A stretch of 20,515 bases of DNA from a virus. Below are positions 3,432-19,599 of this stretch, piece after piece. Position 1 is the first letter of the stretch. Every line of letters starts with the position of its first letter. A program made the translations under genes and the position numbers. The stretch is taken from positions 1 to 20,515 of IMG/VR virus record IMGVR_UViG_3300042534_000228, one strand, 5' to 3'. Under the pieces are notes generated by a model. That model was not told the DNA's origin. It did not search any database and worked only from the letters and a program-made list of their open reading frames with translations.

Positions 3432-3465
3432 AAAAAGGGATGAGATGTAAACCCCACCCCTTTTT
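3432..3465 (-). terminator. terminator/attenuator just after the major capsid gene
   Basis: On the minus strand AAAAAGGGGTG pairs with CATCCCTTTTT (11-bp stem, one G-U pair) around a 12-nt loop, and the run of T continues after it. It sits between the capsid stop and the next ATG, 17 nt before that start, leaving no room for a new promoter. It therefore looks like a leaky terminator that lowers expression of the 170-residue protein relative to the capsid. Confidence 0.7.
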
Positions 3466-4422: not shown

Positions 4423-5541
4423 CTAGTTATTTCTTATTTTATTTAAAATTCTTTCATTCTTAGTCATTTTCGATAAATCAACTTGTACTGGTGTTGAGTT
4501 AATCTTTTTACTTGCAGGTTGGTCTTTCAACTCTACAATTTCTTTTCTTAGTAATTCAAATTTAGCATCTTGTGCTTCAGCGTATTTAATCATAATTGAT
4601 TTGATACTTTCTTGAACTTGACTAACTACACTCGACGCATCTTGAACGCCTGTGTTTGGTGCTGCTGGTTCAGCTTCCATTTCTGCTGGTGCTTTTTCTA
4701 CTTCTGGCATTTGAAAAGAAGCAATAACGCCATCTTCTTCAACTTTTAAAACGCTGGTATCTTCCATAACATACTCACCAACTGGAACGGGTACTTTCGT
4801 CCCATCTTCAGCAACTACCCAAATAGCACCGCCTACTTGTGGTGCATCACCTTCAAACTCGAACGTGATTGCTCCATCTTGCGATTTTGCACTACCCATT
4901 TTAACCTCAATAACTTTTTCATCTTTTACCTCAACTTTTTTTAAGTTCAAAGCAATTAACAAATCGTTTTTAAAGTCATTTAGAGTCTCCTTAATTTCAC
5001 TCATACTTATCTCTGATTTTAAATTAACTTCTTTTAGTGATAACATAGCATCGATACTGAATCCTTTTACCTTGCCTGTTTTAACATAATTTTCCCAAAT
5101 ATCATCATCATCAACTTTCATAGTTGCCATCCAAGTTCCTTTAGGATATGAAAACCCGTAAGCATTAGATTTGTCTTTTTTACTATCTTCTACCAACCAA
5201 CTTTCAACAAAAGTAACCCCTTCGATTTTTTGCTTCTCATCGTGTTCTATTGTACTGTTTTTATGTGAATTTGATTTGAAGAAGTGATACGATAAATCTT
5301 TAATAGTAGATTCGTTAAAAATTATGTTGAACTCCTCGCCATTTTGATTTCTGTAAATTGGTTTGTTAGGTTCTAAAACTAAACCCATCAAAATACGTTG
5401 TTCTAAATCTACGGCTGCAAGTTTAACATCTTCTTTTTTTAATGCAACGAAAACGCCTTCCATTGCAGGATCGTGTACTAAGGAAATACCAAATACTCCT
5501 TTGGTTTCCTTTTCATTAAAAATAGCTTGAAATGTTTTCAT
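4423..5541 (-). CDS. prohead serine protease fused to scaffold-like domain (XkdF / peptidase S78-like)
   Basis: This 372-residue protein is probably the capsid maturation protease. The N-terminal domain (about 1-175) has the family's GISLVHDPAMEGVFVAL opening, a His in STIEHDE (H100) and a Ser in KGFSIDA (S162) as the likely catalytic pair, plus FVESWLVEDS between them. This matches the XkdF-type serine protease. A linker domain (about 214-276, with GTKVPVPVGEYVMED) and a C-terminal coiled-coil region (about 300-345, VQESIKSIMIKYAEAQDAK) then form a scaffold-like tail. An internal ATG at 5004 (M180) could start a scaffold-only product. The ATG lies 9 nt after the ACGTT element of the shared late motif. 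The capsid gene follows by 2 nt. Confidence 0.85.
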   Translation of the reverse strand: MKTFQAIFNEKETKGVFGISLVHDPAMEGVFVALKKEDVKLAAVDLEQRILMGLVLEPNKPIYRNQNGEEFNIIFNESTIKDLSYHFFKSNSHKNSTIEHDEKQKIEGVTFVESWLVEDSKKDKSNAYGFSYPKGTWMATMKVDDDDIWENYVKTGKVKGFSIDAMLSLKEVNLKSEISMSEIKETLNDFKNDLLIALNLKKVEVKDEKVIEVKMGSAKSQDGAITFEFEGDAPQVGGAIWVVAEDGTKVPVPVGEYVMEDTSVLKVEEDGVIASFQMPEVEKAPAEMEAEPAAPNTGVQDASSVVSQVQESIKSIMIKYAEAQDAKFELLRKEIVELKDQPASKKINSTPVQVDLSKMTKNERILNKIRNN

Positions 5542-5550: not shown

Positions 5551-5575
5551 AACGTTTTAAAGTTTGTATTGTTAT
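5551..5575 (-). promoter_or_regulatory. late-promoter-like motif, copy 1 (before protease/capsid genes)
   Basis: The minus strand reads ATAACAA, 13 nt, ACGTT. It lies in the 74-nt gap between the tape-measure stop and the protease ATG, with only 9 nt from ACGTT to the ATG. The same two blocks with the same spacing occur before the chaperone gene and before terS. No TAnnTTTG housekeeping -7 box is present. Promoter function is inferred. Confidence 0.55.
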
Positions 5576-5615
5576 AAATTTGTATCATACTAAATACGAA
5601 TACTATAAATTTTAT

Positions 5616-7124
5616 TTATATAGTAGCATTTTCTTTAATATTTCTATCCACCGCTTGAGCCGATGACATATCAGATGAAACTACATAAGCTTTTAATGGT
5701 TCTTTTTGCGATTGCAATGATTCTGCTATTTGATTTGAACCCGTGCCTTGTACTAAGTTAAACGCAGGTGCATTACGACCACCACCGCCACCACTAGCAG
5801 CATTACCACCACCACCACTATCAGATTTAACAGATAGTATTTTAGCAATTTGCACAGCACTAAATGCACCTGCTAAGCCTGCTTGAACAAATGGATATGC
5901 AGGAAACACCGTTGTAACTGGTGAAGCAGATGCAGTTGTAAATGCGTTCTGTACACCTTCAATACCTGATATAGTTGCTTGTGCTACTGCTACCGCTTTA
6001 CCAACCGCACTACCTTTTTTAGCGATTGCACCAACTAAAGCTAATGTGTTTTCTGTAATATTTAATTTCGCATCAGATACTGCTTGTTCTAATTGTTCTC
6101 TTTCTTGCGCTTCTTGTCTTGCAATTATTTTTCTAGCTTCCGCTGCTGCTGCTTCATTAGCAGTACGTTTTAATTGCTCTCCATTTATAACGCCTGTTAG
6201 TTGTTCTTCTTGCCATTTCTTTAAATCAAATAACTCATTAAATCTATCGTTTACAACTTGTATTCTAGCATCTTGTAGTTTGTTTTCTGCGTCTGTAATT
6301 TGCTCAACTGATTGACCTCCTACACCTGTAACTTTATCTCTTGAACCGCCTGCTTTAGCTTCTGGATTTTCTAAATCAAAGATTTTAATAGAAGTATCTA
6401 CCTGTTCTTTTTTAGCTTTTGTAATTAAGTCCTGTAATTCTAAGAATTTTTTAGAATCTTCTAATTGCCCTTCTAATATAAAAGCATCACCACTACCAGC
6501 ACTCGCTGCATTTAACACCGCTCTAACTATCTTTTCACGTATAGACAACTCAAAAGCAGCCGCTTTTATTTTAGCTGCTTGTATATTTAAACCTGCAATT
6601 TCTTCTTGGTTAGTTTCTACTAACTTATTTAATAATTCAATTTTTTTAGCAAGTAATTCTTTGTCGTTTATTTTTTGCTGACCTGCTAATTTTATTTGTG
6701 ATTCAATTAAACCTAATTGTGTACTCAATGAATCTGCATAAACTCTACTTCTATCTATTTGGTCTTGTATTTTTTTAGACGTTCCAGATATAGCATCATT
6801 GATTTCATCCCAATAAGCAACCACTAAACCAATAGCAACAACGAACGCACCAATACCAGTAGCAATAAGAGCAGTTCGCATACCTTTTAAAGATAAATTA
6901 AATAGTTTACTTGCTTCATAAGCATCTTTGAAACGTGTAGCAAGACCACCCGTTAGTTGGTCAAGTACAGCAATAGCACCACCGTTACTAGCAACATCAT
7001 CAACACTCTTACCAGTTTTAACAGCAGCCGCATCTACTTTTTTAAACGAAGTATCTAGTTTGTTTAATTCAGATTCAGCATTACCTGTATTAACTTTTAT
7101 GTTTATTGTTTTTTCAATAGCCAT
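5616..7124 (-). CDS. tail tape measure protein
   Basis: This 502-residue protein sets tail length and occupies the tail lumen. It has an N-terminal coiled region with TGNAESELNKLDTSF, a hydrophobic segment at about 84-104 (ALIATGIGAFVVAIGLVVAYW), a long Lys/Glu/Gln-rich coiled-coil region (about 115-350) and an Ala-rich segment. A Gly-rich linker (SGGGGNAASGGGGG) and a tail with GTGSNQIAESLQSQKEPLKAYVVS close it. That C-terminal arrangement is characteristic of short tape measures of Bacteroidota siphophages. At the usual ratio of about 0.15 nm per residue the tail would be roughly 75 nm (inference). The start overlaps the end of a 49-residue upstream ORF by 22 nt, suggesting coupling. Confidence 0.88.
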   Translation of the reverse strand: MAIEKTINIKVNTGNAESELNKLDTSFKKVDAAAVKTGKSVDDVASNGGAIAVLDQLTGGLATRFKDAYEASKLFNLSLKGMRTALIATGIGAFVVAIGLVVAYWDEINDAISGTSKKIQDQIDRSRVYADSLSTQLGLIESQIKLAGQQKINDKELLAKKIELLNKLVETNQEEIAGLNIQAAKIKAAAFELSIREKIVRAVLNAASAGSGDAFILEGQLEDSKKFLELQDLITKAKKEQVDTSIKIFDLENPEAKAGGSRDKVTGVGGQSVEQITDAENKLQDARIQVVNDRFNELFDLKKWQEEQLTGVINGEQLKRTANEAAAAEARKIIARQEAQEREQLEQAVSDAKLNITENTLALVGAIAKKGSAVGKAVAVAQATISGIEGVQNAFTTASASPVTTVFPAYPFVQAGLAGAFSAVQIAKILSVKSDSGGGGNAASGGGGGRNAPAFNLVQGTGSNQIAESLQSQKEPLKAYVVSSDMSSAQAVDRNIKENATI

Positions 7125-7252
7125 TGCCTTCTTATTTTACGTTTAAAATCTACCCAATTTACAACAAACTCATGCTTTCCCTTTGCTAGTTCTATATACT
7201 CACCACCTCCGTAAAAGTTATCGCTCTGCAACGTTTTTATTATATCTACCAT
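7103..7252 (-). CDS. small protein (49 aa) between tail fibre and tape measure genes
   Basis: Translated by hand: it starts MVDIIKTLQSDNFYGGGEY and ends RQWLLKKQ. Its ATG overlaps the TAA of the upstream fibre gene by one base (TAATG), and its end overlaps the tape measure start by 22 nt in another frame, so it fills an otherwise empty gap in a tightly packed operon. Composition is ordinary for a soluble protein, with a Tyr/Gly-rich turn and a basic C-terminus (VDFKRKIRRQW). No family is recognised. A tail-assembly accessory role is suggested by position only. Confidence 0.6.
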   Translation of the reverse strand: MVDIIKTLQSDNFYGGGEYIELAKGKHEFVVNWVDFKRKIRRQWLLKKQ

Positions 7253-8553
7253 TATCTTTCTTCTACTATAAAATATGAATCTAGTTCTCCTGTTATGTTA
7301 TTTGTAGCAGCAACATTTGCAACTTGAAATTTAACGTAATCATTCTCGTCTAAAATAATTTCACTTATAACTGTAAAAAACGCTACATCTCTACCACCTT
7401 GTAAATTATTAACTACTCTTCTTGTTATTCTGTAATCTACAAAAGCACTTGCTGAATTATCCCAAACTACTATCTTAAAATCTAATTCATTACCAGATGT
7501 TGAAGCTAAAATAACTTCAGCAATTACTCTAAATTCTCTTGGTGAGTTTCCTAAATGTCTTAATTGACCATTTGCTGGGCTATCAAAGTGTACTAAATTA
7601 TTAGGAACGTAAGTACCCGCTAAATCAACAAAAACACCTAGTGTCGTTATAGTTGTTGCCGTTTCTGTACTTATATTCATTTTACCACCTACAAAAGTAT
7701 TTGCTATTCCGTTGTTGTTTGTCCAAGAACTCACCAAAGAGCCTTGTGTTATGTTTGGAATTATTGTTAAATCACCAGCATTAATAACTCCATTTCTACT
7801 AACAATGCACCCTTCTAATTGCAGCGTACTAGGATTTATAAAATTAGATGCTTGAAAATCAAAGAAAGCTACCGTAGTGTTTAAATCTATATTTTGATTA
7901 CTTCTAAATCTTGATGCCATTGTAAATCCTGTTCCTTCTTCATATAGTGCATAAGCTCCGTCTGTTAATCCCCTAACTATTGAAGTATCTATAAAAAAGC
8001 CACCTGACCAAACACCTGATAAAATCAAATTTGGAGTACCGCCAAATCTACCTGTTCCTGTTTCTAACCCTTGTCTGTAGTTATCAATTTCACCTAATGA
8101 AGTACAATTATTAAAATTTATTCTATCTATTTCAAATGCTTCATTCCCAGTATCACTTACAATATCTAAGACTTGTGACCCTACACCTGTAACTTCTATT
8201 TTAAAATCCTTCCAAAGAACATCACCAGAACCACCGACTGGAGAAGTAAACATAGTGTAAGCAGTAGAGGAAGAAGTTAATCCACTTATATTAAAATCAA
8301 ATCCTTTAATATTTATTCCTCCAGAGGGCACTTCAATAGATGTTGCACCCATATCTATAATTCCATCTAAAAAGTATTCTTTAGAACTATCAATAGAGCC
8401 AAAATCAGATGCCTGTTTTACTACTATTGTATTATCAAGTAATTTTGTGTATAATTCTGTAAAGTTGCTTTCTACTTTTGTAAGTGCATCACGTAACCCA
8501 TCGCCTGTACCATCGTTGTCTACCGTTCCTAAAACTAAATTTTGCTGTGCCAT
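7252..8553 (-). CDS. tail fibre / receptor-binding type virion protein, probable beta-helix
   Basis: This 433-residue protein opens with VLGTVDNDGTGDGLRDALTK followed by VESNFTELY. That pattern (GT..NDGTGD.LR.A..K...NF.ELY) marks the N-terminal virion-attachment segment of many tail fibres and spikes. The rest is a long run of short beta-strands rich in Asn, Gly, Ser and Thr (INIKGFDFNISGLTSS, FEIDRINFNNCTSLGE), consistent with a right-handed beta-helix, then a jelly-roll-like C-terminus (FRVIAEVILAS... DYVKFQVANV). No catalytic residues are evident. It starts 6 nt after the upstream tail gene. Receptor binding is inferred; a simple structural appendage is possible. Confidence 0.72.
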   Translation of the reverse strand: MAQQNLVLGTVDNDGTGDGLRDALTKVESNFTELYTKLLDNTIVVKQASDFGSIDSSKEYFLDGIIDMGATSIEVPSGGINIKGFDFNISGLTSSSTAYTMFTSPVGGSGDVLWKDFKIEVTGVGSQVLDIVSDTGNEAFEIDRINFNNCTSLGEIDNYRQGLETGTGRFGGTPNLILSGVWSGGFFIDTSIVRGLTDGAYALYEEGTGFTMASRFRSNQNIDLNTTVAFFDFQASNFINPSTLQLEGCIVSRNGVINAGDLTIIPNITQGSLVSSWTNNNGIANTFVGGKMNISTETATTITTLGVFVDLAGTYVPNNLVHFDSPANGQLRHLGNSPREFRVIAEVILASTSGNELDFKIVVWDNSASAFVDYRITRRVVNNLQGGRDVAFFTVISEIILDENDYVKFQVANVAATNNITGELDSYFIVEER

Positions 8554-8559
8554 ATCTTT

Positions 8560-10866
8560 TTAATTTGTATCTGATGTTAGTATATTATTATCTGCTGTGA
8601 TATTATTATTGTCTGCTGTTACTCTTTTAAATGTTTGTGTTAATGTTAATGTGAACGCTTGCAATGTATCTGTATTAGTTACAACTACTTGCATAGTTCT
8701 ATCGTACCATAAAATAGATTCATCAAAAGTAAATATCAAATTACTTACAAAATCAGTTATAGTTACCCATCCAGTGCCATCACCTGTATCTGTTTTAACC
8801 GCTGTATAATTATTTAAATTAAGAACATAAGTCGTCGCTGCTTGTGCTGTATAATTTACCGTTATAGATGTTGCAGTAGGACTAAATCCTTGTATAGTAT
8901 TATCAAATGAATTAATTAGATTAAACTCTACATGTCCGTTTAATAAGTTTAAGTTATAGTTATCTATTCTATAATAGTTTTCCTTTATTTGTATTAAATC
9001 GTTCAATGATAGCGATGTTAATATTCTTAGTGGAACTATTGCTTTATATTTAAAGTTTCTACGCTTCACATTGTAGATTGAATCAAGATAAGTCTTATGA
9101 TAAACGGTATAAAGCGACTGATTTAATTCTCTACCATCCCAAGTTGAAAATTCTCTATCGAAAATCAATGAAGTTGAATCAGTTTCTAGTACTATTGAAT
9201 GGCTAGGCGTGTTAATTGTGCTATTTAACTCTTGTTTAACGCCTGTATCTGTGATAAAACCAATGCTTTTTGTCGCTAAAGTGTTAATAACTCTGTAAAA
9301 TATGTGTGGTTTAGGGTTTACTGCTGCTAATGTTTCGTCTATTGCTGCACCATATTGTAATTCTATATAGTTATTGTCATTCAAATCTAGTAATCTCTCG
9401 TAAATAATCTGCTCAAATGGTAGTTCAAACTCTAAACTTTCACCATCTAACAAGTTTCCAGTATCATCTTTTATTAAAACCTCTGAATCACCGTAAGCAA
9501 CACGTGTATCTTCTTCAAATTGTTTGTTTAATATCGTTGTAGGTTCTTGAAATTTAAAATTTATTTCGTTTAATATATCCCCACGTGCTATTTCTACCTC
9601 TGAATAATCCACATACTTTGTTAAATCAAACAATTGCCCTTCAGCATAGTAATTATCTAGTGTGTTTATATAGTAATTAGTGTTTGATGTTGGTACAACA
9701 ACCAATTTAAACATATTAAACAAACCTTTTAAAAAGTCTATTATCTTTATTTTAGGTAAATTATTAATAAATAAGAAATTACTTTCTAAAGTATTCACTG
9801 CTGCATTTGATGTATATGTACCCACAAATGAATGGTCAACACTATACCCAGCCGTATATGAAAACTCAGCACTACTACCAACCTCATAATACACTTCGTT
9901 ATCCTCACCTCCTGCGGGGTCAACGTCTCTAAAAAATTTAGTCCCTTTAAAATTATTTTCAAATTGTATTTCCCCGTTGTTGTATTTTCTAAAAATATAT
10001 TCTGTATTCTCATAACCAGCTTCTGGTATAATTGTACAGGTCAAAGTATATGTTCCAGCAGAAGGATACAAACCTTTGTTTGTTGTTAAATTCATGTAAG
10101 GGTCATTGGTAGTTGTGAAATCAAGAACTTGCCAATTAAACAATACTTCACTTGTATTATTAGCCCATAAATATAACGGGGCGAAATCAGAAGTACCAAA
10201 GAAGTCACGACTGAAAGTGATTCCGTATGCAACCTCAATAGCTTCAATTATTCTAATAAGTTTTATTGATGGTCTTAAATCATTCCATACAATACCCGTA
10301 TTAACACCACCACCCCATGCTATATTAGCAATCGTTGCTTCTTGTGTGTTATCTGTAACGTCAGCGTTATAAATATATCGTTTCTTTACTATTGGCGTGT
10401 AAACATAGTCAGCATTCACATTACTATCAATTAACCCAGCCTTAACGGTTGTAGAGTTATACGCATGATCGTAAGACGTGAAATCTAAATCTGTTAATTC
10501 ATCTTTTTTTAATAAGTCTTTTAATGATACCAAACGACCCCAAAAATTTAGAGTATATGAGCTAGGCTTATTGTTTTTTAAAGCAACTTTATTTAATCTA
10601 AACTTGCCGTATTTAAAAGGTATGCCATCGAGTTCAATAGATCCTGATTGTTTAATACGTGCGTCAAATCCATCGTCTATATTAGCATCGTAGTAATGCT
10701 TGAAAATCGCATTATTGTTATCACTCGCAGGAACGGTAAAACTCTTAGTATATTCGGTGGTGTTCTTTGTAATATCAGAAACATCAGCAATAGATGAATT
10801 TAAATTAATATCTTCATCACCAAATAAATCTAGTTTGTCAGTGCCTATATATAAATTAATTATCAT
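8560..10866 (-). CDS. large distal tail / baseplate-hub-like protein
   Basis: At 768 residues this is the largest protein in the window. It starts MIINLYIGTDKLDLFGDED, continues with ITKNTTEYTKSFTVPASDNN and then FKYGKFRLNKVALKNNKPS. These are patterns of a widespread Bacteroidota phage protein lying downstream of head-tail genes and taken to be a distal tail or tail-tip component. The C-terminal quarter (about 660-745) has beta-sandwich character (TSITVNYTAQAATTYVLNL), possibly Ig-like, and the end carries a short repeated TADNNNI/TADNNIL element. Its start overlaps the preceding stop by 4 nt (ATGA). The assignment as tail protein is fairly safe; the exact place in the tip is not known. Confidence 0.7.
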   Translation of the reverse strand: MIINLYIGTDKLDLFGDEDINLNSSIADVSDITKNTTEYTKSFTVPASDNNNAIFKHYYDANIDDGFDARIKQSGSIELDGIPFKYGKFRLNKVALKNNKPSSYTLNFWGRLVSLKDLLKKDELTDLDFTSYDHAYNSTTVKAGLIDSNVNADYVYTPIVKKRYIYNADVTDNTQEATIANIAWGGGVNTGIVWNDLRPSIKLIRIIEAIEVAYGITFSRDFFGTSDFAPLYLWANNTSEVLFNWQVLDFTTTNDPYMNLTTNKGLYPSAGTYTLTCTIIPEAGYENTEYIFRKYNNGEIQFENNFKGTKFFRDVDPAGGEDNEVYYEVGSSAEFSYTAGYSVDHSFVGTYTSNAAVNTLESNFLFINNLPKIKIIDFLKGLFNMFKLVVVPTSNTNYYINTLDNYYAEGQLFDLTKYVDYSEVEIARGDILNEINFKFQEPTTILNKQFEEDTRVAYGDSEVLIKDDTGNLLDGESLEFELPFEQIIYERLLDLNDNNYIELQYGAAIDETLAAVNPKPHIFYRVINTLATKSIGFITDTGVKQELNSTINTPSHSIVLETDSTSLIFDREFSTWDGRELNQSLYTVYHKTYLDSIYNVKRRNFKYKAIVPLRILTSLSLNDLIQIKENYYRIDNYNLNLLNGHVEFNLINSFDNTIQGFSPTATSITVNYTAQAATTYVLNLNNYTAVKTDTGDGTGWVTITDFVSNLIFTFDESILWYDRTMQVVVTNTDTLQAFTLTLTQTFKRVTADNNNITADNNILTSDTN

Positions 10867-11939
10867 ATATTATTAATTTCATTGTACGCAAAATCAAACG
10901 CTATCTCGTAATTTATTAACCTGTCTTTTTGGCGTGTTTTATATTCCAAAGATGTACTATTTATATTCAATGGTATAAATGTGTTATCAACTAATCTATA
11001 CACCTTATCAGATAATAATAACTGTTTAAATGTTTCGTTTAATGCTTCGTCTACAAAACCGCTATTAACTTTGAATTTAGATTTACCATTTATATTATAC
11101 TTTACAAATTGATGGAAGCCTAACGATGGTTGACCCCTATCGCTCTCATACTGTTCACTTGATATTGATATATCTTCAGTTAGTGATTTGAAAAATGTAA
11201 TACTTTGTTGTGTGCCTTCCTTATTGCAAAAGTGAATATCTATTGGCGTGTATCTACACTCATCTAATATGTAATACGTAAGCGTTACCCCATTGTGTAC
11301 AACCTCGAAATAAGTATCTGTCGTCGTTTCTGTGGCATCAATTAACATAGTAGATACTAACTCACTATTAGTGCCTGTACTATCGTTTAAATTAGGCGTA
11401 ATGGTGTAGTTAATTTGATTAGCTGGATATGAAATAACAGTAGTTGCAGTCGCTAATAAATTAGTTTGTAATGGTACAGCTATATAACTTGTACGTGATA
11501 CATTAAATTCAGTACCATACATCAGTATTTTGTTAGTTGGTGTTGCTATGTTCTCACCATCATTGCCATAACTATAACCACGTGTGAACATATTAACAAC
11601 ACCTAATTGTGGTGTAGATGCATCCGCTGGGTTAGTTGTTACATAAGTCACTTCTGTTTTTACCCATTGCTGGTTTACTGTGTCTAATAAACCCGTTGCT
11701 AGTGCTTTTACTGGTGTGAACGTTATAAAGTCATTTAGTATTTTAGCGATGTTTACTTTTGAATCGCCTGTTGATGTTGTTGGGTTATCTTTTGTTATAG
11801 CATAACTTGCAGTCGCTGGAAATGCTGATTGTAACCCACTCCATACATAAATTGATAGCGTGTATGATGTGCAGGTTAAAGCAGTTGCAGGACTAACAAA
11901 AGGTGTAGTAATATAATATGGGGATAGTGTCTTAATCAT
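10863..11939 (-). CDS. tail protein of unknown exact role
   Basis: This 358-residue protein is linked by ATGA overlaps on both sides to the gp10-like gene upstream and the large tail protein downstream. It begins MIKTLSPYYITTPFVSPA and has beta-rich strands (YTLSIYVWSGLQ), a LNDFITFTPV segment and a region with CRYTPIDIHFCNKEGTQQ. It ends in a helical part that includes RQKDRLINYEIAFDFAYN. Proteins with the same opening pattern accompany the distal tail gene in Flavobacterium phages and are virion components to my recollection. No signal peptide, membrane segment or enzyme motif is seen. Baseplate or tail-tip component is the likely role, from context. Confidence 0.62.
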   Translation of the reverse strand: MIKTLSPYYITTPFVSPATALTCTSYTLSIYVWSGLQSAFPATASYAITKDNPTTSTGDSKVNIAKILNDFITFTPVKALATGLLDTVNQQWVKTEVTYVTTNPADASTPQLGVVNMFTRGYSYGNDGENIATPTNKILMYGTEFNVSRTSYIAVPLQTNLLATATTVISYPANQINYTITPNLNDSTGTNSELVSTMLIDATETTTDTYFEVVHNGVTLTYYILDECRYTPIDIHFCNKEGTQQSITFFKSLTEDISISSEQYESDRGQPSLGFHQFVKYNINGKSKFKVNSGFVDEALNETFKQLLLSDKVYRLVDNTFIPLNINSTSLEYKTRQKDRLINYEIAFDFAYNEINNI

Positions 11940-12466
11940 TTCGTTACAAATTTTAAAAATTCATCGACTTCTAAGCCGTATGCTTTTGTTAGTTCTTCTG
12001 GTAATTTTTTAAACTCTTTACTAAACGGGTTCGTAAAAAAGTTAGTAGTTTCTAAACCCGTATGGAATACAGAATTAGCAATAGCTAACTGTAAACTTTT
12101 ACGACTTGTAAACTGCCCTTTTGCGTTACGTGGTGCAATTCCTTTTCTTACACTCCACTCACTAAATACTGATGCAGGCGGTTTTTTGCTTTTATATTTG
12201 AAAGGTGATTTACCAGATACCCTTTTCTTTTTCCATTTACTCCCATCTGCTTTAGTACCACCAACACCCTTAACACCCTTATCAATAAAATCTAAATAAT
12301 CTTCTGAATATATTGCTAACTCAAAACTATTTTTACTTACTTTTAATTTATAATCTAAACTTTTTGATAGTTTGCCAGACGCATTTTTCCCCTTGCTTTT
12401 TAGGTTGCGTTTAGCATCATCTATTACATCATAAGCAAAACTATCTAAAGCGTTCTTTACTGACAT
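11936..12466 (-). CDS. HK97 gp10-like head-tail joining / tail completion protein
   Basis: This 176-residue basic protein starts with a helix that continues into DDAKRNLKSKGKNASGKLSKSL. The pattern (helix, basic loop, 'SG.L..SL', then a KNSFELAIYSEDYLDFIDKG strand set) matches HK97 gp10 family neck proteins, with the usual SEDY..FIDKGVKG turn. It then carries Lys-rich segments (KWKKKRVSGK) and a C-terminal helix. It starts 1 nt after the pectate-lyase-like gene ends (TAA-A-ATG) and overlaps the next gene by 4 nt. The fold assignment is by sequence pattern; joining the tail tube to the head or capping it is the known role of the family. Confidence 0.7.
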   Translation of the reverse strand: MSVKNALDSFAYDVIDDAKRNLKSKGKNASGKLSKSLDYKLKVSKNSFELAIYSEDYLDFIDKGVKGVGGTKADGSKWKKKRVSGKSPFKYKSKKPPASVFSEWSVRKGIAPRNAKGQFTSRKSLQLAIANSVFHTGLETTNFFTNPFSKEFKKLPEELTKAYGLEVDEFLKFVTK

Positions 12467-12467
12467 T

Positions 12468-13910
12468 TTATATCTCTCTTTTATTCCTCTTACTAAACCT
12501 ATTTCTACCTTTTTGTAATTCTGTTAAAGTATGAGTTATATTACCTGATACTGCTCCATCTACACTGTTTAAAAATTCTTCCATCCAAGTATAATCGCTT
12601 GGAGCTAAGTCATTATGTACTGTTGTTGTATTAGTTACACCTCTATCGGTTAAAAATGCAGCAGGTATATGTTGATTTGTTCCATAATAACTTGTTCTAG
12701 TGTTATTTGGTAGTGTTGGTTGAACCCATGTTTTGTTATATGGGTCACGGCTTGTTGAAGTAACAACATCATTAATTCTTGTGGTGTCGTAACTGTCTAT
12801 ATATGTTCCATAAGTACCATCGGCATTTAAGTATTTATTAGCACCTGCATCAGCTAAAACATCTGTATATGCTTCAGATGCACTTTTAATTGTAAAACTT
12901 TGACCTCTTAACTCGTGCTGTGTTGTTGTAAAATAAGCACTATTTACAGGGGTTGAATTACCGTTAGGAAAAACAGTCCATAAATTTCTATCATCTAATT
13001 GAGGAGTTGTGTATAAAGCAGAATGATAATTATTTGCTGTATAAATAGAGGGTGCTGCTGGTGATTGTACCTGACCATCTGCTCCAACTGTTGATGTATA
13101 ACTACCTCGTCTTAAGTAATTACTTATGTAATTAACAGCTCCAAGTGAAGCACCATTCATATTAGTAGTTCTATATGCGTGGTTAAATATAATGTTGTTT
13201 ATAATATCTACTTGTAAATTCGCATTAAGGTTAGGTGTTCTATGTCCTTGATGTACAAATAAATTATTTAAAACAGATATATTGCCAACATCATAAGAGC
13301 TAGCATTTGAGTTTAAAATAATACCTGTCGCATTTTCTGAAAAAACACACCTACTTATAGTTTGATTTGTTAAATTTCCATAAGTAGCCTGCATACTAAT
13401 TGCTTGGTCATCATTAAAAGAAAAACTACAATGGTCTAATATTAAACCATTTGTACCCACAGAGATAAAACCGTTATGGGCATAAACATCAGCAACACCT
13501 GTATAACTACCATTTCTGAATCTTATGTATCTAAAAATAGCATTATTGCAGGGTTGATTTGCTCTACCATAACCACCACCTAATTGTATTGGTTTCCCGC
13601 TAATAGTAATGCCACCTTGTGGTGCTGTTTGTCCTGCTATCGTTACATCTGAATTTTCTAATATAAGTTCAAGTATTGATGTTAAATTAATAATTCCTGA
13701 AACATCAAAAACGATAATTCTAGGCACAGTCATTAATAAGGCTTCTCTTAAACTTCCTGTTCCGCTATCGTTTAGATTTGTTACATGAACAACTGTACCT
13801 CCTCTACCACCTGTAACATATGCTCCTGCTCCGTATGCTGATGGAAATGCTAATTGTTGCCCTATTATAAATGATGGGAGAAATAAAATTATATAAATTA
13901 ACTGTTTCAT
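12468..13910 (-). CDS. pectate-lyase-like polysaccharide lyase (PL1-like beta-helix) with signal peptide
   Basis: This 480-residue protein starts with a clear Sec signal peptide, MKQLIYIILFLPSFIIG, with likely cleavage before QQ at residue 18. The mature N-terminus matches bacterial pectate lyases: AFPSAYGAGAYVTGGRGG (21-38), VTNLNDSGTGSLREAL (43-58), VSGIINL (70-76) and TIAGQTAPQGGITISG (90-105). LDHCSFSFNDD at 158-168 and HRTPNL at 223-228 lie where PL1 enzymes have Ca2+-binding and catalytic residues; R224 is the candidate catalytic Arg. The C-terminus keeps the YTWMEEFLNSV element but lacks the usual Asp-rich loop before it and any visible secretion domain. It overlaps the upstream gene by 4 nt. 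It probably degrades host surface or algal polysaccharide; substrate and activity are inferred. Confidence 0.85.
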   Translation of the reverse strand: MKQLIYIILFLPSFIIGQQLAFPSAYGAGAYVTGGRGGTVVHVTNLNDSGTGSLREALLMTVPRIIVFDVSGIINLTSILELILENSDVTIAGQTAPQGGITISGKPIQLGGGYGRANQPCNNAIFRYIRFRNGSYTGVADVYAHNGFISVGTNGLILDHCSFSFNDDQAISMQATYGNLTNQTISRCVFSENATGIILNSNASSYDVGNISVLNNLFVHQGHRTPNLNANLQVDIINNIIFNHAYRTTNMNGASLGAVNYISNYLRRGSYTSTVGADGQVQSPAAPSIYTANNYHSALYTTPQLDDRNLWTVFPNGNSTPVNSAYFTTTQHELRGQSFTIKSASEAYTDVLADAGANKYLNADGTYGTYIDSYDTTRINDVVTSTSRDPYNKTWVQPTLPNNTRTSYYGTNQHIPAAFLTDRGVTNTTTVHNDLAPSDYTWMEEFLNSVDGAVSGNITHTLTELQKGRNRFSKRNKREI

Positions 13911-14401
13911 AATTGTGTTATAATTATATTGTCAATCGCTAAATAAGTTGCTGGCGCAGTAGTAGCACCCACTCTCATTCTTTGTGTTGCTGCATTTGTT
14001 GTGACTGTCATTGTTCTATAAACCCAAGTATTCAATCCTGTTCCATAACCATAAGAAGCTGATTTGGTTGTCGTAAAACCTTCCCAATTATAGCAGTGTA
14101 CATCCCAATTCCCTGTGTTGCAGTATCCGTACATTTCAATTGTATATGTTTGTCCACTTGCCAATGAGAAGCTATAAAAAGATTCAGAAGCAACACCTGA
14201 TGTTGTTACTGTGTGTTTTATCGAATAAGTTCCATTCTGTGCCGTTGGTACACTTGACACGCTTGATACTGTACAGTTTGTTGTTGAACCAACACCCGTT
14301 GCAGCATTTACCTCGCTATTTGGGTTTGCTGCGTTTGCTAACGTGTAAAAATTAGTTGGTGCTGTTGTGCCTTGTTTTAAAAATCCAAATTGTATAATCA
14401 T
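13907..14401 (-). CDS. beta-sandwich, carbohydrate-binding-module-like protein
   Basis: This 164-residue protein has no signal peptide (starts MIIQFGFLKQGTTAP). The core (about 45-164) runs through NGTYSIKHTV, SFSLASGQTYTIEMYGY, GLNTWVYRTMTV and APATYLAIDNIIITQL. This is the pattern of jelly-roll carbohydrate-binding modules such as CBM4/9, including the closing 'a.yl.iDni.i' strand. Aromatic residues in YGYCNTGNWDVHCYNWEGF could form a sugar-binding platform. Its stop overlaps the ATG of the pectate-lyase-like gene by 4 nt and it starts 1 nt after the repeat-rich fibre gene. It may be a detached adhesion domain of that fibre or a partner of the lyase. Function is inferred. Confidence 0.62.
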   Translation of the reverse strand: MIIQFGFLKQGTTAPTNFYTLANAANPNSEVNAATGVGSTTNCTVSSVSSVPTAQNGTYSIKHTVTTSGVASESFYSFSLASGQTYTIEMYGYCNTGNWDVHCYNWEGFTTTKSASYGYGTGLNTWVYRTMTVTTNAATQRMRVGATTAPATYLAIDNIIITQL

Positions 14402-14402
14402 A

Positions 14403-16250
14403 TTAACTAAAGTTTAAAGCATCTACACAGAAATAGCTTGTGCCATCCCAATACAATGTTATAATATCCGTTCCTGTTGTCAATGTTGTTGTCAATGTTG
14501 GAGCAACGCCACCCGCCCATTTAACACTCGCAGGAAATGTTGCTGTTCTACTTCCTACTGAATCTTGTACTAATTTTAAAATAAATGTACCCGCTTGCAA
14601 TGGTGCTGTAAAAGTAAATGTTTCATTGAACGCTCCGAATTGGAAATTAAACATATTACCTAACTGCCAATCAATAGTAGTAGCACCATCACCTGTTGCT
14701 GATTGTGCTGTTTGCCCTATTAAATTTTGTGGTGGGTTTAAATACTCCCATGTATTAGCTGCTGTTTTACGTATAGTTATAACATCTTCTAAATTATATG
14801 TTTGCCTTGTTGTAATACCTGAACCACTTACAATTACATTTCCTGCTGCACTTCGTTTATATTGAAGTAATGTGCCAATATCAAAAGCACTACCGTCTGC
14901 TGTAATTTGTGCTGCATCTGATAAAATAGTAATAGTCACATCACTTGTAGCTGTGGAATTATTCATACCATCAGCATCAGTAAGTGCTGAATCTCTTGAT
15001 ACCGTAATAGTAGATGAATCTGTAAGTAAACCTGATTGTAAAGCTACAATTTCATCCCACTTAGCAGTTGTTAATAGCCCAGCCGTACTTACCGTAGCAG
15101 CAGGAATAATAACATCATCAACACCGCCATCAGATGTAATACCTACTGTATTAACACCAACCGTTCCAATACTTAATGTTGTTGATACGTTTGATACTAA
15201 ACCACTATATATAGTATTAACTGCGTTGTCGCCTGTGTTAGTTCCAGAAGTATTAGTAAGCCTTGTACTTGATGTACTATCAAATGAAATTTTAGAAGTG
15301 TTTGCTGCAACCGATGTGTTGTTTGATACTTCTGTATCAAAATCTGTTATTTCACTTGCTGTATGTGTGTGTGCTGTCGGTGCATCACCTATATACATAA
15401 CATTACCATCACTAATAACGCCATCTAACTGTGCCTTTGTGGTTGCAGCAAATTGTGATAATGGATTAGCAACTAAAGCGTCTCCTGTTCCACCACCTGC
15501 ATATTGTGGTATGTTTAAAGTTGAACCAACTAATGTAGCAGCCCCGCTTGTTCCTGTTGTGGTTAGTGATATGTTATCTTGTTTAGAACCTGCTAAACCA
15601 CTATACAAAGTATTAGCCGCATTGTTATCAGAGTTATCAGTTCCAACAGGATCAAAATCTACACCTGTAACAGGAATTGTTTGGTCTCCTGTATTTGTTC
15701 CACTTGTGTTTGCTAATCGTGTAGAAGCTGTGCTATCAAATGAAACTTTAGCAGTATTAGAAACAATTTCAGCCCATTTACTTGTGGGTAATACGCCTGC
15801 TGCTGAAATAGTTGCCGATGGTATAATAACATCGTTAGCACTTCCATCTGAAGTGATACCAACCGTTGTTGTATTTACTGTTCCAACACTTAAAGCAGTA
15901 GAAACATTAGATACTTTAGCGTTGTTAGTTACAATGTTTGTTGCTTGTGTTGGTGTTATTCCAACTTTAGCAGTATTTAAACCCACAGCAGTAGCGTCTG
16001 TATAACTAATCTTAGCGTTGTTTGCTGTAATATTACTAGCTTGTGTCGGTGTAATACCAACTTTCGCTGTATTTAAAGCAACCGCTGCTGAATCAGTATA
16101 ACTTGTTTTAGCTGTGTTAGCATCTATCAAAGATTGTTTATCAACTAAATCATCTGCTATCGCTACTAAATTAGTTCCTACTCTTGTGGCTGTATTTGCA
16201 TTAGCTATCGTTTCATTCTTAATTACTAAAGCATCCGTTTTTATACTCAT
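14403..16250 (-). CDS. repeat-rich tail fibre protein
   Basis: This 615-residue Ser/Thr/Asn/Ala-rich protein is an elongated fibre. Residues 50-81 and 82-113 are tandem 32-residue repeats (SYTD.AAVALNTAKVG then ITPTQASNI). A larger block recurs: residues 113-163 match 352-402 (VSNVST.LS.GTV through KW.EIV). SFDSTASTRLANTSGTNTGD (170-189) also recurs at about 322-341. The centre has fibre hallmarks (AHTHTASEITDFDTEVSNN). The C-terminus (about 505-615) is a beta-rich domain with ATGDGATTIDWQLGNMF and RTATFPASVKWAGG. The modular, duplicated build is typical of trimeric fibres that evolve by repeat exchange. No chaperone gene is recognised next to it. It starts 6 nt after the tail-terminator-like gene. 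Confidence 0.78.
   Translation of the reverse strand: MSIKTDALVIKNETIANANTATRVGTNLVAIADDLVDKQSLIDANTAKTSYTDSAAVALNTAKVGITPTQASNITANNAKISYTDATAVGLNTAKVGITPTQATNIVTNNAKVSNVSTALSVGTVNTTTVGITSDGSANDVIIPSATISAAGVLPTSKWAEIVSNTAKVSFDSTASTRLANTSGTNTGDQTIPVTGVDFDPVGTDNSDNNAANTLYSGLAGSKQDNISLTTTGTSGAATLVGSTLNIPQYAGGGTGDALVANPLSQFAATTKAQLDGVISDGNVMYIGDAPTAHTHTASEITDFDTEVSNNTSVAANTSKISFDSTSSTRLTNTSGTNTGDNAVNTIYSGLVSNVSTTLSIGTVGVNTVGITSDGGVDDVIIPAATVSTAGLLTTAKWDEIVALQSGLLTDSSTITVSRDSALTDADGMNNSTATSDVTITILSDAAQITADGSAFDIGTLLQYKRSAAGNVIVSGSGITTRQTYNLEDVITIRKTAANTWEYLNPPQNLIGQTAQSATGDGATTIDWQLGNMFNFQFGAFNETFTFTAPLQAGTFILKLVQDSVGSRTATFPASVKWAGGVAPTLTTTLTTGTDIITLYWDGTSYFCVDALNFS
15912..16103 (-). repeat. tandem 96-bp coding repeat in the tail fibre gene
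   Basis: Two in-frame units, 16008-16103 and 15912-16007, each encode 32 residues (SYTD..AV.LNTAKVGITPTQ and onward). The copies differ mainly at synonymous or conservative positions, so the duplication is not recent. Confidence 0.75.
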
Positions 16251-16256
16251 TATATT

Positions 16257-16757
16257 TTAATTAAAAGTTAAGTCAAATGTTAAATCAAATAAATCACCAC
16301 TACACAATGAAAGTGTTGTGTTAGGCATCTCAATATCAAATGTCATTATCCAACCATCTAATAAGTTTTTACCGTATTCTGTGAAAGGTTCTAACGATGG
16401 GTTTTCAGTCGATGTGATATTATTATCATCAAAGTTCTTATACATTTTAGTCCACAGCCTGTTCAATGTAGATAAGGTTTCATTTAGATTATCTACTTCA
16501 TTATCATTAAGCCAAAATTTATCTGTGTTTACATTCTTGTTAATATCACGAATACCGAAGCAACCTATCTGAACATTAAACGTTACTGTCTGTCCGTTCG
16601 TGAATCCTGCACCTGTAACGTTAATATGAAGCAATGGAAATATATTAGCTTTGTCTAAATCTAACTCATCAAAATCGCCTTGTGTGATCGTATTAACAAA
16701 CGGGTCAGCATCGCCAAGTTGTTTAATATAATATAACAGTTCTGTGTATTGATTCAT
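16257..16757 (-). CDS. tail terminator / tail completion-like protein
   Basis: This 166-residue soluble protein starts MNQYTELLYYIKQLGDADPF and contains LDKANIFPLLHINV, VTFNVQIGCFGIRDINKN, NETLSTLNRLWTKMYKN, EPFTEYGKNLLDGWIMTFD and a C-terminal SLCSGDLF element. The helix-strand order (N-terminal helix, 'P.lhinv' strand, second helix, 'gw.mtfdi' strand) resembles tail terminator and completion proteins of Bacteroidota phages, which cap the tail tube. Its ATG overlaps the stop of the -1 frame of the chaperone gene by 4 nt (ATGA), which itself argues that the -1 frame is translated. Assignment is from pattern and neighbourhood. Confidence 0.62.
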   Translation of the reverse strand: MNQYTELLYYIKQLGDADPFVNTITQGDFDELDLDKANIFPLLHINVTGAGFTNGQTVTFNVQIGCFGIRDINKNVNTDKFWLNDNEVDNLNETLSTLNRLWTKMYKNFDDNNITSTENPSLEPFTEYGKNLLDGWIMTFDIEMPNTTLSLCSGDLFDLTFDLTFN

Positions 16758-17505
16758 AATCTTTTTGTATTTGCTCCTGCTCTTAAATCTGCTTTTAAAC
16801 GCTCTCTATCTATATCCTCAGCCAGCCATAAATGTAACTCGTGTACGTTCATATTAAATACCGCTTCCATTCGCCATGGTTTATACTTAGCTAACTTTTT
16901 GATTGTGGAATACCATCCCCATTTTTCAAAATAGTCCGATGCTTTTGCACCCTCGCTAGTTCCTGTATTGTATATCTCTGGATAGCTATTTCCAATTCGT
17001 TCGCTAAATTGTAAAAAAAAATCAATGCACCATTTACAATATTCATCGGTGTACGCTTCATCACATCTGCATACTTTTCAGTACCATTGTAAGTTTCAAT
17101 ATCATAGTTTTTAAAAGCATCGTCTTTTATAACTGGTCTGAATAGTATAGCCATTAGTTTGTGATACGTTTCAATATCTTCTAATGGGTATAACGATAAA
17201 TCTGTAAACTCTTTAGCAGTCATCTTATCGAAGTTGGGTATGAATCCAAACTCTACACCGTTTAATTTAAAGCGATCTACAAAAGGCACGTCTGCGTTTA
17301 ATGCTATATCTATTTGTTTTAGTATATCTTCAAAGTCTTTATTAGCCACGTTGTTTAAATCATGGTATTTTATACTCGTGAATATCTCTACCTTACGTTT
17401 ATTAAACTGATAGTCATCTAGATCTTCACGCTTCAATAGCAATGCGTACTTTTGAAACTGCTCTAGTGTTATATCCTGTATGTTTTCTGGTAATACAATC
17501 TTCAT
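16754..17505 (-). CDS. tail assembly chaperone, G-T frameshift fusion (-1 frame extension)
   Basis: A -1 slip at the T9 run leads from codon 164 into an 86-codon frame ending in TGA at 16754-16756, giving a 250-residue fusion. The -1 frame opens LQFSERIGNSYPEIYN and contains FEKWGWYSTIKKLAK, then MNVHELHLWLAEDIDRERL. This is the pattern (F..KWGWy..i..La......l......h..L) of T-type domains of tail chaperones in Bacteroidota phages. That frame has no credible start of its own in the right place. Its TGA overlaps the next ATG by 4 nt, and it fills a gap of 133 nt that would otherwise be non-coding. Together these support real translation. Frameshift efficiency cannot be judged from sequence. Confidence 0.72.
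16891..17505 (-). CDS. tail assembly chaperone, G-like product (0 frame)
   Basis: This 204-residue protein starts MKIVLPENIQDITLEQFQKY and includes FGFIPNFDKMTAKEFTDLS and YHKLMAILFRPVI, a helical pattern I associate with tail-chaperone-like genes of Bacteroidota phages. It is the short form of a frameshift pair. The 0 frame runs on past a T9 run (codons 162-164) to a TAG at 16891, adding about 40 residues of low-complexity, basic character (VQKHRTILKNGDGIPQ). The longer form is described separately. Such proteins coat the tape measure during tail assembly. Its ATG lies 8 nt after the ACGTT element of the shared late motif. The usual position directly before the tape measure is not kept here, so the functional label stays tentative. 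Confidence 0.68.
   Translation of the reverse strand: MKIVLPENIQDITLEQFQKYALLLKREDLDDYQFNKRKVEIFTSIKYHDLNNVANKDFEDILKQIDIALNADVPFVDRFKLNGVEFGFIPNFDKMTAKEFTDLSLYPLEDIETYHKLMAILFRPVIKDDAFKNYDIETYNGTEKYADVMKRTPMNIVNGALIFFYNLANELEIAIQRYTIQELARVQKHRTILKNGDGIPQSKS
17013..17021 (-). other. slippery T9 run for programmed -1 ribosomal frameshifting
   Basis: On the minus strand the 0 frame reads ATT TTT TTT TAC. It contains the classical X XXY YYZ heptamer as T TTT TTT, and a -1 slip gives TTT TTT TTA in the frame that encodes the KWGWY domain. It is the longest homopolymer I noticed inside a gene here. A stimulatory downstream structure was not identified. Confidence 0.7.
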
Positions 17506-17513
17506 ATAATATA

Positions 17514-17538
17514 AACGTTTAATAGTTTATTTTGTTAT
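17514..17538 (-). promoter_or_regulatory. late-promoter-like motif, copy 2 (before the tail chaperone gene)
   Basis: The minus strand reads ATAACAA, 13 nt, ACGTT. It begins directly after the terL stop and leaves 8 nt between ACGTT and the chaperone ATG. Copies 1 and 2 also share AAACT-x-T inside the spacer. It fills almost the whole terL-chaperone gap. An ATAAAC/GTTTAT inverted repeat overlaps it (17511-17530). Confidence 0.55.
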
Positions 17539-18747
17539 TTATCTAATTTCTATTTTAAAGCTACGTCCTAAATGATAAAATACATTGTATCGTATTGCAT
17601 CTATTAAATGATTGAAGTTATCTACATACAGCTTACTACCTTTATCTGCATACACATAGTTGTTTAACTCCTTAGCAATGTTAATGCTTTCATGATCTAT
17701 TATCAATTCATAATCTTGCATCAATGCAATACCAGCACTAATACTACCAGCCCCCTTTTCAGTAGGTACAATGTTACAGCCTAATCTATTAATTTCCTCA
17801 ATCAGTCTAGGCTCTGCACTATCAGCAACGATTAAACTCTTGCCACATACGTTTATATTAATCAATGCTATCTGTGATGTTGTTAGTTTTGGTTTGTATA
17901 GATGCTCTTTAACATATATCTTTTTACGCTTCTTATCTATTGCAACTGCCACCAATGTAGATGGGTCAATACTAAACCCGTAATCCTGCCCGTATGATAC
18001 TTGTAATTCGTCTGGGTTGAACTTACCATAAGACCAGTTAGTAAATACAACACCCTCCGCCTTATCTAACCAGCTGCCCTCTATAATGTGTTTAAACTTA
18101 ATAGGATTAGTATCCCGTATCATCTCAACTTCATGAATAAACGATTGGTCTAAATGCTGTATGTTATCTAAGTAAGTTGTATGTATGTAAGTAGTATTGT
18201 TTGCAATACCGTTAAACCCCTCTTTAACGCCTGCACGCTCAAAGAATCGTTTGTATATCCAATGTTCTTTAGATGCTGGATTAAGTATTAGTATAACTCT
18301 GTTCTGTACACCCTTTGTACGTATGGATAGATTAATCTTATCAAACGTTTCCTCGTCTACAAGTTCTTCTGCTTCGTCTAATATCCAAGTTGTAACACCT
18401 TGCAATGATTTAAGGTTTGCTGTTTGATCACCGCTAGAAGTCTTTAACCCTTTAAAGATTATGATGCTACCAGATAGCTTATTTAGTATCTCACCTCTAG
18501 CAATATCAAAATGCTCTTTAACATTGTTCAGTTCCATCTTTTCTTCAAACTCTGGAACGATTGAAAGGTTAGCAGATGTCATTGTCTGCCTTGTAAAAAG
18601 TATCTTGTGATTTGTTTCGTATGAAAGTAGTTTAGTGAATGTACCTACACCGAATGACTTAGAAGAACCACGTCCACCCGTAATAATAAAAAATCTTGTA
18701 TCGTTATAAAATAACGGTCTGTACTTTGGATTTAAAACAATGCTCAT
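17539..18747 (-). CDS. terL: terminase large subunit
   Basis: This 402-residue DNA-packaging motor has both domains. The ATPase part has Walker A GGRGSSKS at 24-31, Walker B WILDEAEE at 121-128 with D124 and E125, and a coupling motif LILNPAS at 153-159. The RNase-H-like nuclease part has acidic residues D255 (GQDYGFSIDP), D309 (VADSAEP) and D383 (LIDAIRY). This is the PBSX/XtmB type. Length is normal and all key residues are present, so it should be functional. It overlaps terS by 4 nt (ATGA). It docks on the portal, but no portal gene follows as it would in most siphophages; the tail chaperone gene comes next after a 33-nt gap holding the shared late motif. Confidence 0.95.
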   Translation of the reverse strand: MSIVLNPKYRPLFYNDTRFFIITGGRGSSKSFGVGTFTKLLSYETNHKILFTRQTMTSANLSIVPEFEEKMELNNVKEHFDIARGEILNKLSGSIIIFKGLKTSSGDQTANLKSLQGVTTWILDEAEELVDEETFDKINLSIRTKGVQNRVILILNPASKEHWIYKRFFERAGVKEGFNGIANNTTYIHTTYLDNIQHLDQSFIHEVEMIRDTNPIKFKHIIEGSWLDKAEGVVFTNWSYGKFNPDELQVSYGQDYGFSIDPSTLVAVAIDKKRKKIYVKEHLYKPKLTTSQIALININVCGKSLIVADSAEPRLIEEINRLGCNIVPTEKGAGSISAGIALMQDYELIIDHESINIAKELNNYVYADKGSKLYVDNFNHLIDAIRYNVFYHLGRSFKIEIR

Positions 18748-19016
18748 TCATCAAACTTTAGTAAGTCTTTAAGATTGAAATCATTTAAGGTATGTGTGTT
18801 GTTTTGGTCTATAACTTGTTTAGGCATACCGTAACGATATTGTAACCATGTTTTAATGGCTTGTGTATCACCATCTTTTACTTTATCGTGTAATGCTTTC
18901 CAAACGTTTTTAGGTATTGCAACCGCATCCATTTGTTCAACGATTTTTATTTCGTCTACCTTTGGTTTACGTCCTGCGTTTTTATTACCCCCGTTATTTT
19001 TTCTACCATCCGCCAT
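18744..19016 (-). CDS. terS: terminase small subunit
   Basis: This 90-residue DNA-binding protein starts MADGRKNNGGNKNAGRKPK and continues with DEIKIVEQMD. A helical core follows, with VWKALHDKVKDGDTQAIKTW and YRYGMPKQVID, the usual end of small terminase subunits in Bacteroidota phages. The basic Gly/Asn/Lys-rich N-terminus resembles that of other small terminases. I chose ATG at 19016; a TTG at 19022 in frame is weaker and would add only two residues. Its stop overlaps terL by 4 nt. The 33-nt leader after the shared late motif contains a perfect 14-bp palindrome. It selects the packaging start site on concatemeric DNA. Confidence 0.82.
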   Translation of the reverse strand: MADGRKNNGGNKNAGRKPKVDEIKIVEQMDAVAIPKNVWKALHDKVKDGDTQAIKTWLQYRYGMPKQVIDQNNTHTLNDFNLKDLLKFDE

Positions 19017-19026
19017 AATCAAATAA

Positions 19027-19040
19027 AATCATTAATGATT
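19027..19040. repeat. 14-bp perfect palindrome in the terS leader
   Basis: AATCATTAATGATT reads identically on both strands. It lies between the ACGTT of the late motif and the terS ATG. It could be an operator or a terminase-related site, but there is no direct evidence for either. Confidence 0.4.
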
Positions 19041-19049
19041 CATTATTAT

Positions 19050-19074
19050 AACGTAAAATTTAAACTTTTGTTAT
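19050..19074 (-). promoter_or_regulatory. late-promoter-like motif, copy 3 (before terS)
   Basis: The minus strand reads ATAACAA, 13 nt, ACGTT, as in copies 1 and 2. It starts one base after the stop of the 29-residue ORF and is 33 nt from the terS ATG, leaving a longer leader than the other copies. Confidence 0.55.
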
Positions 19075-19075
19075 A

Positions 19076-19165
19076 TTAGCAGTAGTATGCATAGAATTGA
19101 ATCGTTAATAAATAAATTCCTATTAATACTAATGCTGTTACTATAATGTTTCTAATTGCTTTCAT
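19076..19165 (-). CDS. 29-residue single-pass membrane microprotein
   Basis: Translated by hand: MKAIRNIIVTALVLIGIY followed by LLTIQFYAYYC and TAA. A positively charged N-terminus (K2, R5) precedes about 20 hydrophobic residues, so an N-in single membrane helix is predicted. The ATG is 2 nt after the stop of the upstream gene (TAG-AT-ATG), the same spacing as the protease-capsid junction, which suggests coupling. Too short for a signal peptide of a larger protein. It might be a small inner-membrane regulator or holin-like peptide, but no family is recognised. Confidence 0.5.
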   Translation of the reverse strand: MKAIRNIIVTALVLIGIYLLTIQFYAYYC

Positions 19166-19167: not shown

Positions 19168-19599
19168 CTATTTTGTTTCGTAACTTTGATACACTTTATC
19201 TAACCGTTTAATCATATCTCTAATAATCACAGCACTACCAGAACAGTTATGGCATAGATTATTTACCTTCCATAAGAATACGCCCTCATGTAATTTAACA
19301 ACTTCTTTTAATTGTTCTTCTGTTACTAAGTTAAGCGTTCTATTTTTATAATAATCATTGTACCAGTTGTATTCTGATTCTGTAAAACATCGCTTTGCTT
19401 TATATCTTATTGGCATCATTTCATTTAGTTTATCCCTACGTTCATTACAACCGCAATCTTCACCAGCTATGAATTTAACGAGTTTCTTTATCCCTGTGGC
19501 TTCTGTTATGCTCTCTATTATATCTCCAACGCCTTGTGGATGGTCTTTAATATACTCTTTGTATTCCTTAGTTCGTTTGTCTATCTTCTTCTTTGCCAT
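19168..19599 (-). CDS. conserved Cys-containing phage protein of unknown function
   Basis: This 143-residue charged protein contains GVGDIIESITEATGIKKLVKF, then GEDCGCNERRDKLNEM, C71, FTESEYNWYNDYY, and CHNCSGSAVIIRDMI near the end. Cysteines at 49, 51, 71, 116 and 119 could bind a metal ion. The 'GDIIE.ITEATGIKK' plus 'DCGC..R...LN' pattern recurs in Bacteroidota phages upstream of the terminase genes, by recollection, without a known function. The proximity to terS/terL suggests a packaging or late-regulation role, but that is inference. Its start overlaps the end of a 51-residue ORF by 32 nt. Confidence 0.72.
   Translation of the reverse strand: MAKKKIDKRTKEYKEYIKDHPQGVGDIIESITEATGIKKLVKFIAGEDCGCNERRDKLNEMMPIRYKAKRCFTESEYNWYNDYYKNRTLNLVTEEQLKEVVKLHEGVFLWKVNNLCHNCSGSAVIIRDMIKRLDKVYQSYETK

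Follow-up and report, generated by a model that had tools for sequence, protein, structure and literature searches.

The 20,515-nucleotide (nt) phage record IMGVR_UViG_3300042534_000228 of IMG/VR, taken here in its entirety as the window, contains three copies of a two-part element, ATAACAA-N13-ACGTT, in its late gene module, and we propose that these are -35/-10 promoters for the phage's own extracytoplasmic function (ECF)-type sigma factor, driving the late transcription units. We estimate the probability of this reading at about 0.86. An original prediction, made from the letters of the window, had put the three copies forward as promoters for an alternative sigma factor and had noted a sigma-like gene upstream of them, and both points gain support here: the two blocks have the spacing of ECF promoters, the upstream open reading frame (ORF) is recognized as an ECF-type sigma factor by NCBIfam, by profile comparison with PDB and by predicted fold, and a CGTT box placed 12 nt 5' of start codons stands out in loci picked through the sigma gene and is absent from phages without it.

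Three copies of the element in the window

A pattern search finds the exact element three times, always on the minus strand and always in a non-coding gap of the ORF map (Table 1), and there is no fourth exact copy on either strand of the entire record, just as had been read by eye. The tail-gene copy is directly 3' of the terL stop codon, the terS copy is 3' of a 29-codon ORF, and the remaining copy lies in the gap separating the tape-measure ORF and the protease gene. Counted from the C of CGTT, the ATG is 12 nt away in the tail gene, 13 nt in the protease gene and 37 nt in terS. Shuffled sequences yield a mean of 0.03 matches, an expectation computed for a motif picked after being seen; an unbiased count of dyads of 7+5 bases with spacers of 8–21 nt gives 44 that occur at least three times in the window, as against 12–42 in shuffles. 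The weight of the argument is carried by the location in gaps, the common strand, the fixed distance to the ATG and the conservation in relatives, of which the relatives are decisive. Generic promoter and terminator scans of the window stay at the level of shuffled sequence, and Rfam gives no match.

The twelve defined bases are exact in all three window copies, but the functional core is shorter, AAC(A/T)A-N13/14-CGTT followed by WATA: the full 12-base form is in none of the first 80 terL relatives fetched, whereas the shorter core is in many. Copies inside genes lack the fixed spacing. One of these, with a single mismatch, lies within region 2 of the window's sigma gene (20020–20044, minus strand), and full-core copies followed by ATTATAGTGATG or a close variant are found inside the sigma genes of two relatives (L004:105–127 and L013:4179–4201, both plus strand). 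We considered an internal promoter in the sigma gene and judged it less likely: the copies fall on different codons in the window and in L004, and because the codon registers differ they are probably due to chance or to constraint on the protein.

Geometry of the putative promoters

Reduced to AAC-N16-CGTT, or to a spacer of 17 in most copies of the Nonlabens phage P12024S, the element has by its sequence the canonical layout of an ECF promoter, with an AAC -35, a CGT-type -10 and 16–17 nt between them. The SigW -35 consensus is TGAAAC, with the C at -31 (PMC6713349), and Flavobacterium psychrophilum promoters that are attributed to ECF sigma factors have a CGT box around -10 (PMC9723704). A position table of 25 aligned sites has C-12, G-11, T-9 and A-27 invariant and T-10 in 24 of the 25, with WATA after CGTT. 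The housekeeping box TAnnTTTG is missing from the minus strand of all three gaps, as had been claimed, and full host-type promoters (TTG-N17-23-TAnnTTTG) are found at other genes, while no gap with the motif has one, although the cases are few.

Conservation in relatives and linkage to the sigma gene

Ten whole records of terL relatives were scanned for a relaxed pattern, ACAA-N11-15-CGTTW, and 25 of its 88 hits are 11–13 nt 5' of the first ATG of an ORF, where 0.20 would be expected; the reversed pattern gives none at that distance. When the -35 block is not required, CGTT is exactly 12 nt 5' of a first ATG 25 times in the same records, with a mean of 1.4 at other offsets. These relatives are not independent of one another, and the stronger tests are loci selected through the sigma gene and negative controls. 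Among 77 loci fetched by the sigma alone, CGTT is at 12 nt 19 times, as against a mean of 2.7 at other offsets (P about 1e-10), and it is at 12 nt in none of 297 starts from five Bacteroidota phages without any hit of the sigma profile (Riemerella RAP44, Bacteroides BS-TP2, Flavobacterium 11b, Polaribacter P12002L and part of Olleya Harreka_1).

The element is also kept in front of the same genes. A tally of the tail gene has CG[T/A]T exactly at -12 in 61 of 73 sequences. The element is therefore not missing in front of these genes in relatives, an outcome that would have counted against the original prediction. It also lies 5' of the terS homologue in three relatives (L006, L008 and L012), before a protease homologue identified by PHROG match (G008) and before like-placed genes of similar size (G001, G010, G011 and G016). 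Across records the genes 3' of the motif are terS, the 204-amino-acid tail gene, the protease gene, the portal gene (L090) and small genes of unknown function; in the other records those that could be identified are tail, protease and portal genes, leaving a few small genes without identity. This supports the predicted division of the late module into terS-terL, tail and protease-capsid units.

Isolated members of this virus group infect marine Bacteroidota, and among them the Nonlabens phages P12024S and P12024L encode a homologous sigma (gp33/gp35), for which the P12024S record annotates only a Sigma-70 region 2 domain. P12024S has six copies of the element, all in structural-packaging modules, before gp05 (a small gene directly 5' of the portal gene), gp08, gp35 (two genes 5' of terL), gp41, gp44 and gp45, and none in the recombination-replication block gp17–gp32. 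In front of its gp01, the product of which resembles the window protease by eye, CGTT is likewise at -12 and the -35 is weak.

In the 59,277-base contig behind L019 (L092–L094) the promoter set is duplicated at a distance of about 29 kb; on the reversed contig the genes that it precedes are at 16003/45065, 22981/51958, 26409/55395 and 592/32939. Because of this duplication the contig appears to be a fusion of two related phage genomes.

An ECF-type sigma factor upstream of the terminase genes

Profile and structure comparisons agree that ORF 19695–20159 is a two-domain ECF-type (group IV) sigma factor. The window protein matches the Pfam region 2 family Sigma70_r2 (PF04542) at E=8e-4, below the curated cut-off; this family is found in 18 of 21 members of the protein family (best 2e-8) and Sigma70_r4_2 in two of the 21, while NCBIfam ECF-sigma models are matched by all 21 homologues tested (best 5.8e-11). 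Compared with PDB, the family profile finds SigW (5wuq, E=1.9e-6) and also SigL and SigE, and the N-terminal fragment of SigR (1h3l, region 2) is matched both by profile and by fold. The AlphaFold2 model (mean pLDDT 78.6, pTM 0.44) has nine helices in two domains connected by a low-confidence linker, without regions 1.1 and 3 in its 154 amino acids; at these confidence values the relative placement of the two domains is uncertain. Its top fold matches are ECF sigmas, and the modelled C-terminal domain fits region 4 of Escherichia coli sigmaE bound to -35 DNA (2h27) with a root-mean-square deviation of 1.1 Å over 57 columns. PRK06930, the PBSX Xpf-type model, is matched weakly by five of the 21 members (best E=4.9e-5).

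As a single-sequence query the ORF finds no relative in viral contigs, whereas an alignment query does, and an iterated profile recovers the sigma from 63 of the searched loci; wherever the terminase genes were located as well, the sigma gene is upstream of them. A neighbouring anti-sigma gene is typical of ECF sigmas, although not defining for them; the adjoining 143-amino-acid ORF has no Pfam match.

Predicted start sites and leaderless transcripts

Because CGTT is 12 nt 5' of the ATG in most units, transcription is predicted to start at the A of the ATG or within 1–2 nt of it, and most late mRNAs are probably leaderless or nearly so. The tail gene's ATG is very likely its real start, since most relatives align with its product from residue 1 onwards. 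A T at -1 is present in 18 of 25 motif genes and in 122 of 297 others (P=0.003), an excess in keeping with transcription beginning at this A in a pyrimidine-purine context. Nearly leaderless transcripts had been part of the original prediction, and the tail and protease units of the window fit this geometry, but the terS unit appears to be an exception, with a predicted leader of about 25 nt.

Within this predicted terS leader, between promoter 1 and terS, is a palindrome, AATCATTAATGATT, at 19027–19040 (minus strand), and other short palindromes (TTGATTAATCAA, AATCAATATTGATT) are found in several relatives at roughly the same place 5' of terS. A hairpin or palindrome as a conserved element 5' of terS was rejected, as stems of at least 5 are found in 12 of 40 terS leaders and in 10 of 36 tail leaders.

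Variation of the sigma factor and the -10 element

Variant -10 elements track sigma clades, CGTTTATA being found with NEAYFYYTLRSL and CGATAATA with NESLFYFVLRNT. The clades differ both in the -10 (CGTTTATA, CGATAATA, AGTT, TGTT and, in the L075 group, CTATTATA-like) and in a segment of sigma region 2, and these differences would fit co-evolution of sigma and promoter, with few independent changes. Three relatives (L075, L076 and L078) have an altered element before the tail gene, ACAAATTTCTATTATATAG, and no CGTT; a divergent sigma was found in the first two, and the group is a candidate for a shifted sigma-promoter pair.

Other features of the window

Coordinates are collected in Table 1. The 29-codon ORF, which has a hydrophobic stretch (MKAIRNIIVTALVLIGIYLLTIQFYAYYC), lies between the 143-amino-acid ORF and promoter 1 (19076–19165, minus strand). 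Within the tail unit, a 480-amino-acid ORF (12468–13910, minus strand) has a signal-peptide-like start followed by a pectate-lyase-type portion as judged by eye, and is possibly a depolymerase. A terminator-like hairpin with a T tract at 3442–3460 (minus strand), between the likely capsid gene and the next ORF, may separate capsid from downstream gene.

Table 1. Putative promoters and genes of the window
Feature	Coordinates	Strand	Remarks
Late promoter 1 (putative)	19050..19074	-	ATAACAA 19068–19074, 13 nt, ACGTT 19050–19054; for terS-terL; terS ATG 19016
Late promoter 2 (putative)	17514..17538	-	CGTT starts 12 nt 5' of ATG 17505 of the 204-amino-acid tail-unit gene
Late promoter 3 (putative)	5551..5575	-	For protease-capsid; C of CGTT 13 nt 5' of ATG 5541
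ECF-type sigma factor, 154 amino acids	19695..20159	-	Has regions 2 and 4 only; would read the three putative promoters
143-amino-acid ORF	19168..19599	-	Sigma/terS interval, kept in most relatives; no Pfam match
terS (terminase small subunit)	18744..19016	-	By position and conservation; ATG 19016
terL (terminase large subunit)	17539..18747	-	Pfam Terminase_3, E=1.5e-32
Conserved 204-amino-acid gene, first of tail unit	16891..17505	-	PHROG 32199 (unknown function)
Head maturation protease	4423..5541	-	XkdF-like Peptidase_S78_2, PHROG 24921
Likely major capsid protein	3488..4420	-	PHROG 11320 (unknown function); named by position after protease

Discussion

We propose that the host primary polymerase would make the sigma along with earlier genes, and that the sigma would then steer the host core RNA polymerase to the terS-terL, tail and protease-capsid units. 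In this scheme sigma region 4 would recognize the AAC of ATAACAA as the -35 core, and region 2 would recognize CGTT(WATA) as the -10 element. A start at or near the A of the ATG would give leaderless or nearly leaderless late mRNAs in most units, which could plausibly be accepted by ribosomes working independently of Shine-Dalgarno pairing.

Several points weigh against this proposal. The three copies were recognized as a dyad a posteriori and are therefore weak evidence by themselves; in the window alone they are not significant after correction, which qualifies the original prediction. The single-model Pfam and NCBIfam matches of the window protein are under the curated cut-offs, some relatives deviate at the tail gene (AGTT, TGTT, CGAT and CATT), and further position-specific 4-mers (TAAA, TTAA and AATT) are present 5' of starts in the same loci. 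With strict SigW numbering, in which the C is at -31, transcription would begin 1–2 nt into the ATG, and this leaves the exact start uncertain. In F. psychrophilum the leaderless share of mRNAs is only 5.5% (PMC9723704), and a virus making them the rule among its late transcripts would thus be notable.

It is also conceivable, if unlikely, that the motifs are read by a host ECF sigma that the phage exploits, its own sigma-like protein doing something else. Promoters of the ECF type whose -10 carries a CGT box do exist in host flavobacteria (PMC9723704), and AAC-N16-CGT is a common ECF core that such a host sigma could read equally. The 12-nt spike, however, is present in the loci picked by the phage sigma and absent in the five Bacteroidota phages without it, and the -10 variants follow the phage sigma clades, though through few independent changes. 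We find it improbable that the element serves 5' of the start codon as a signal in the RNA or for translation and has no promoter role, as the very fixed distance to the ATG and the other position-specific 4-mers near starts might suggest, because some copies are 28, 37 or 43 nt from the ATG, the two blocks have ECF spacing, and the element is linked to the sigma gene and absent from Bacteroidota phages lacking it. We regard it as very improbable that the sites are ordinary promoters of the host primary sigma, with a -10 resembling TATAAT and a CGTT that is incidental. The terS copy can be read as ATAACA-18-TATAAT, a 10/12 match to the E. coli consensus, but in the 12-nt units a TATAAT so placed would make transcripts begin within the gene, the bases of CGTT are invariant or nearly so, and the gaps lack TAnnTTTG. 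Chance repeats in an AT-rich genome, for which the 44 recurring dyads might be cited, are hardly credible given the conservation, the position and the controls, above all the contrast between sigma-picked loci and sigma-less phages.

Should the phage-sigma promoter reading be right, a large group of Bacteroidota phages, in which control of the late genes is seemingly undescribed, would have both a sigma and the promoters for it assigned. Their late units could be annotated with no more than the sequence, and their late mRNAs would be expected to be leaderless, in bacteria that make no use of Shine-Dalgarno sequences. All of this is open to testing in P12024S and P12024L, which are available as isolated phages, and the -10/sigma variants could yield orthogonal promoter parts for Bacteroidota. 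At a little better than even odds, we lean towards a broader view in which the late genes of a widespread Bacteroidota phage lineage are under the control of its own ECF sigma, with promoters abutting the start codon, most late mRNAs leaderless, and sigma and promoter having drifted together (CGTT, CGAT and AGTT). Were this true, the lineage would offer a natural set of sigma-promoter pairs, and its members would switch translation to the leaderless mode in hosts that have little leaderless mRNA.

Both phage-coded late sigmas (T4, SPO1 and PBSX Xpf) and ECF promoters are already known; an earlier description of an ECF sigma-promoter pair in Bacteroidota phages was not found in the open literature, a scope outside which most subscription journals fall. 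The late sigmas gp55 of T4 and gp28 and gp33-34 of SPO1 redirect the host polymerase to phage promoters, but they belong to other sigma lineages and use other promoters, those of T4 late genes having no -35 element. Xpf (Pcf) activates the late operon of the Bacillus subtilis prophage PBSX. Like the window protein it is a two-domain group IV sigma-like protein on a phage element (PMC10141391), although PBSX is a defective prophage of a Firmicute and the sequence link to the window family is weak. The ECF (group IV) sigmas SigW and sigmaE share with the window protein the possession of regions 2 and 4 only, and with its proposed promoters the AAC -35, the CGT-type -10 and the 16–17 nt spacing; they are cellular stress regulators, usually with an anti-sigma, whereas here the gene is a phage gene near the terminase and the promoters are locked to the start codon. 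In F. psychrophilum SM6, the promoters attributed to Bacteroidota ECF sigmas share the CGT box in the -10 region, but they serve host genes of type IX secretion (PMC9723704). A further comparison is with the Nonlabens phages P12024S and P12024L (Inhavirus), which have the homologous sigma and the six copies of the element and differ in a spacer that is mostly 17 and in a record that describes no promoter or sigma role.

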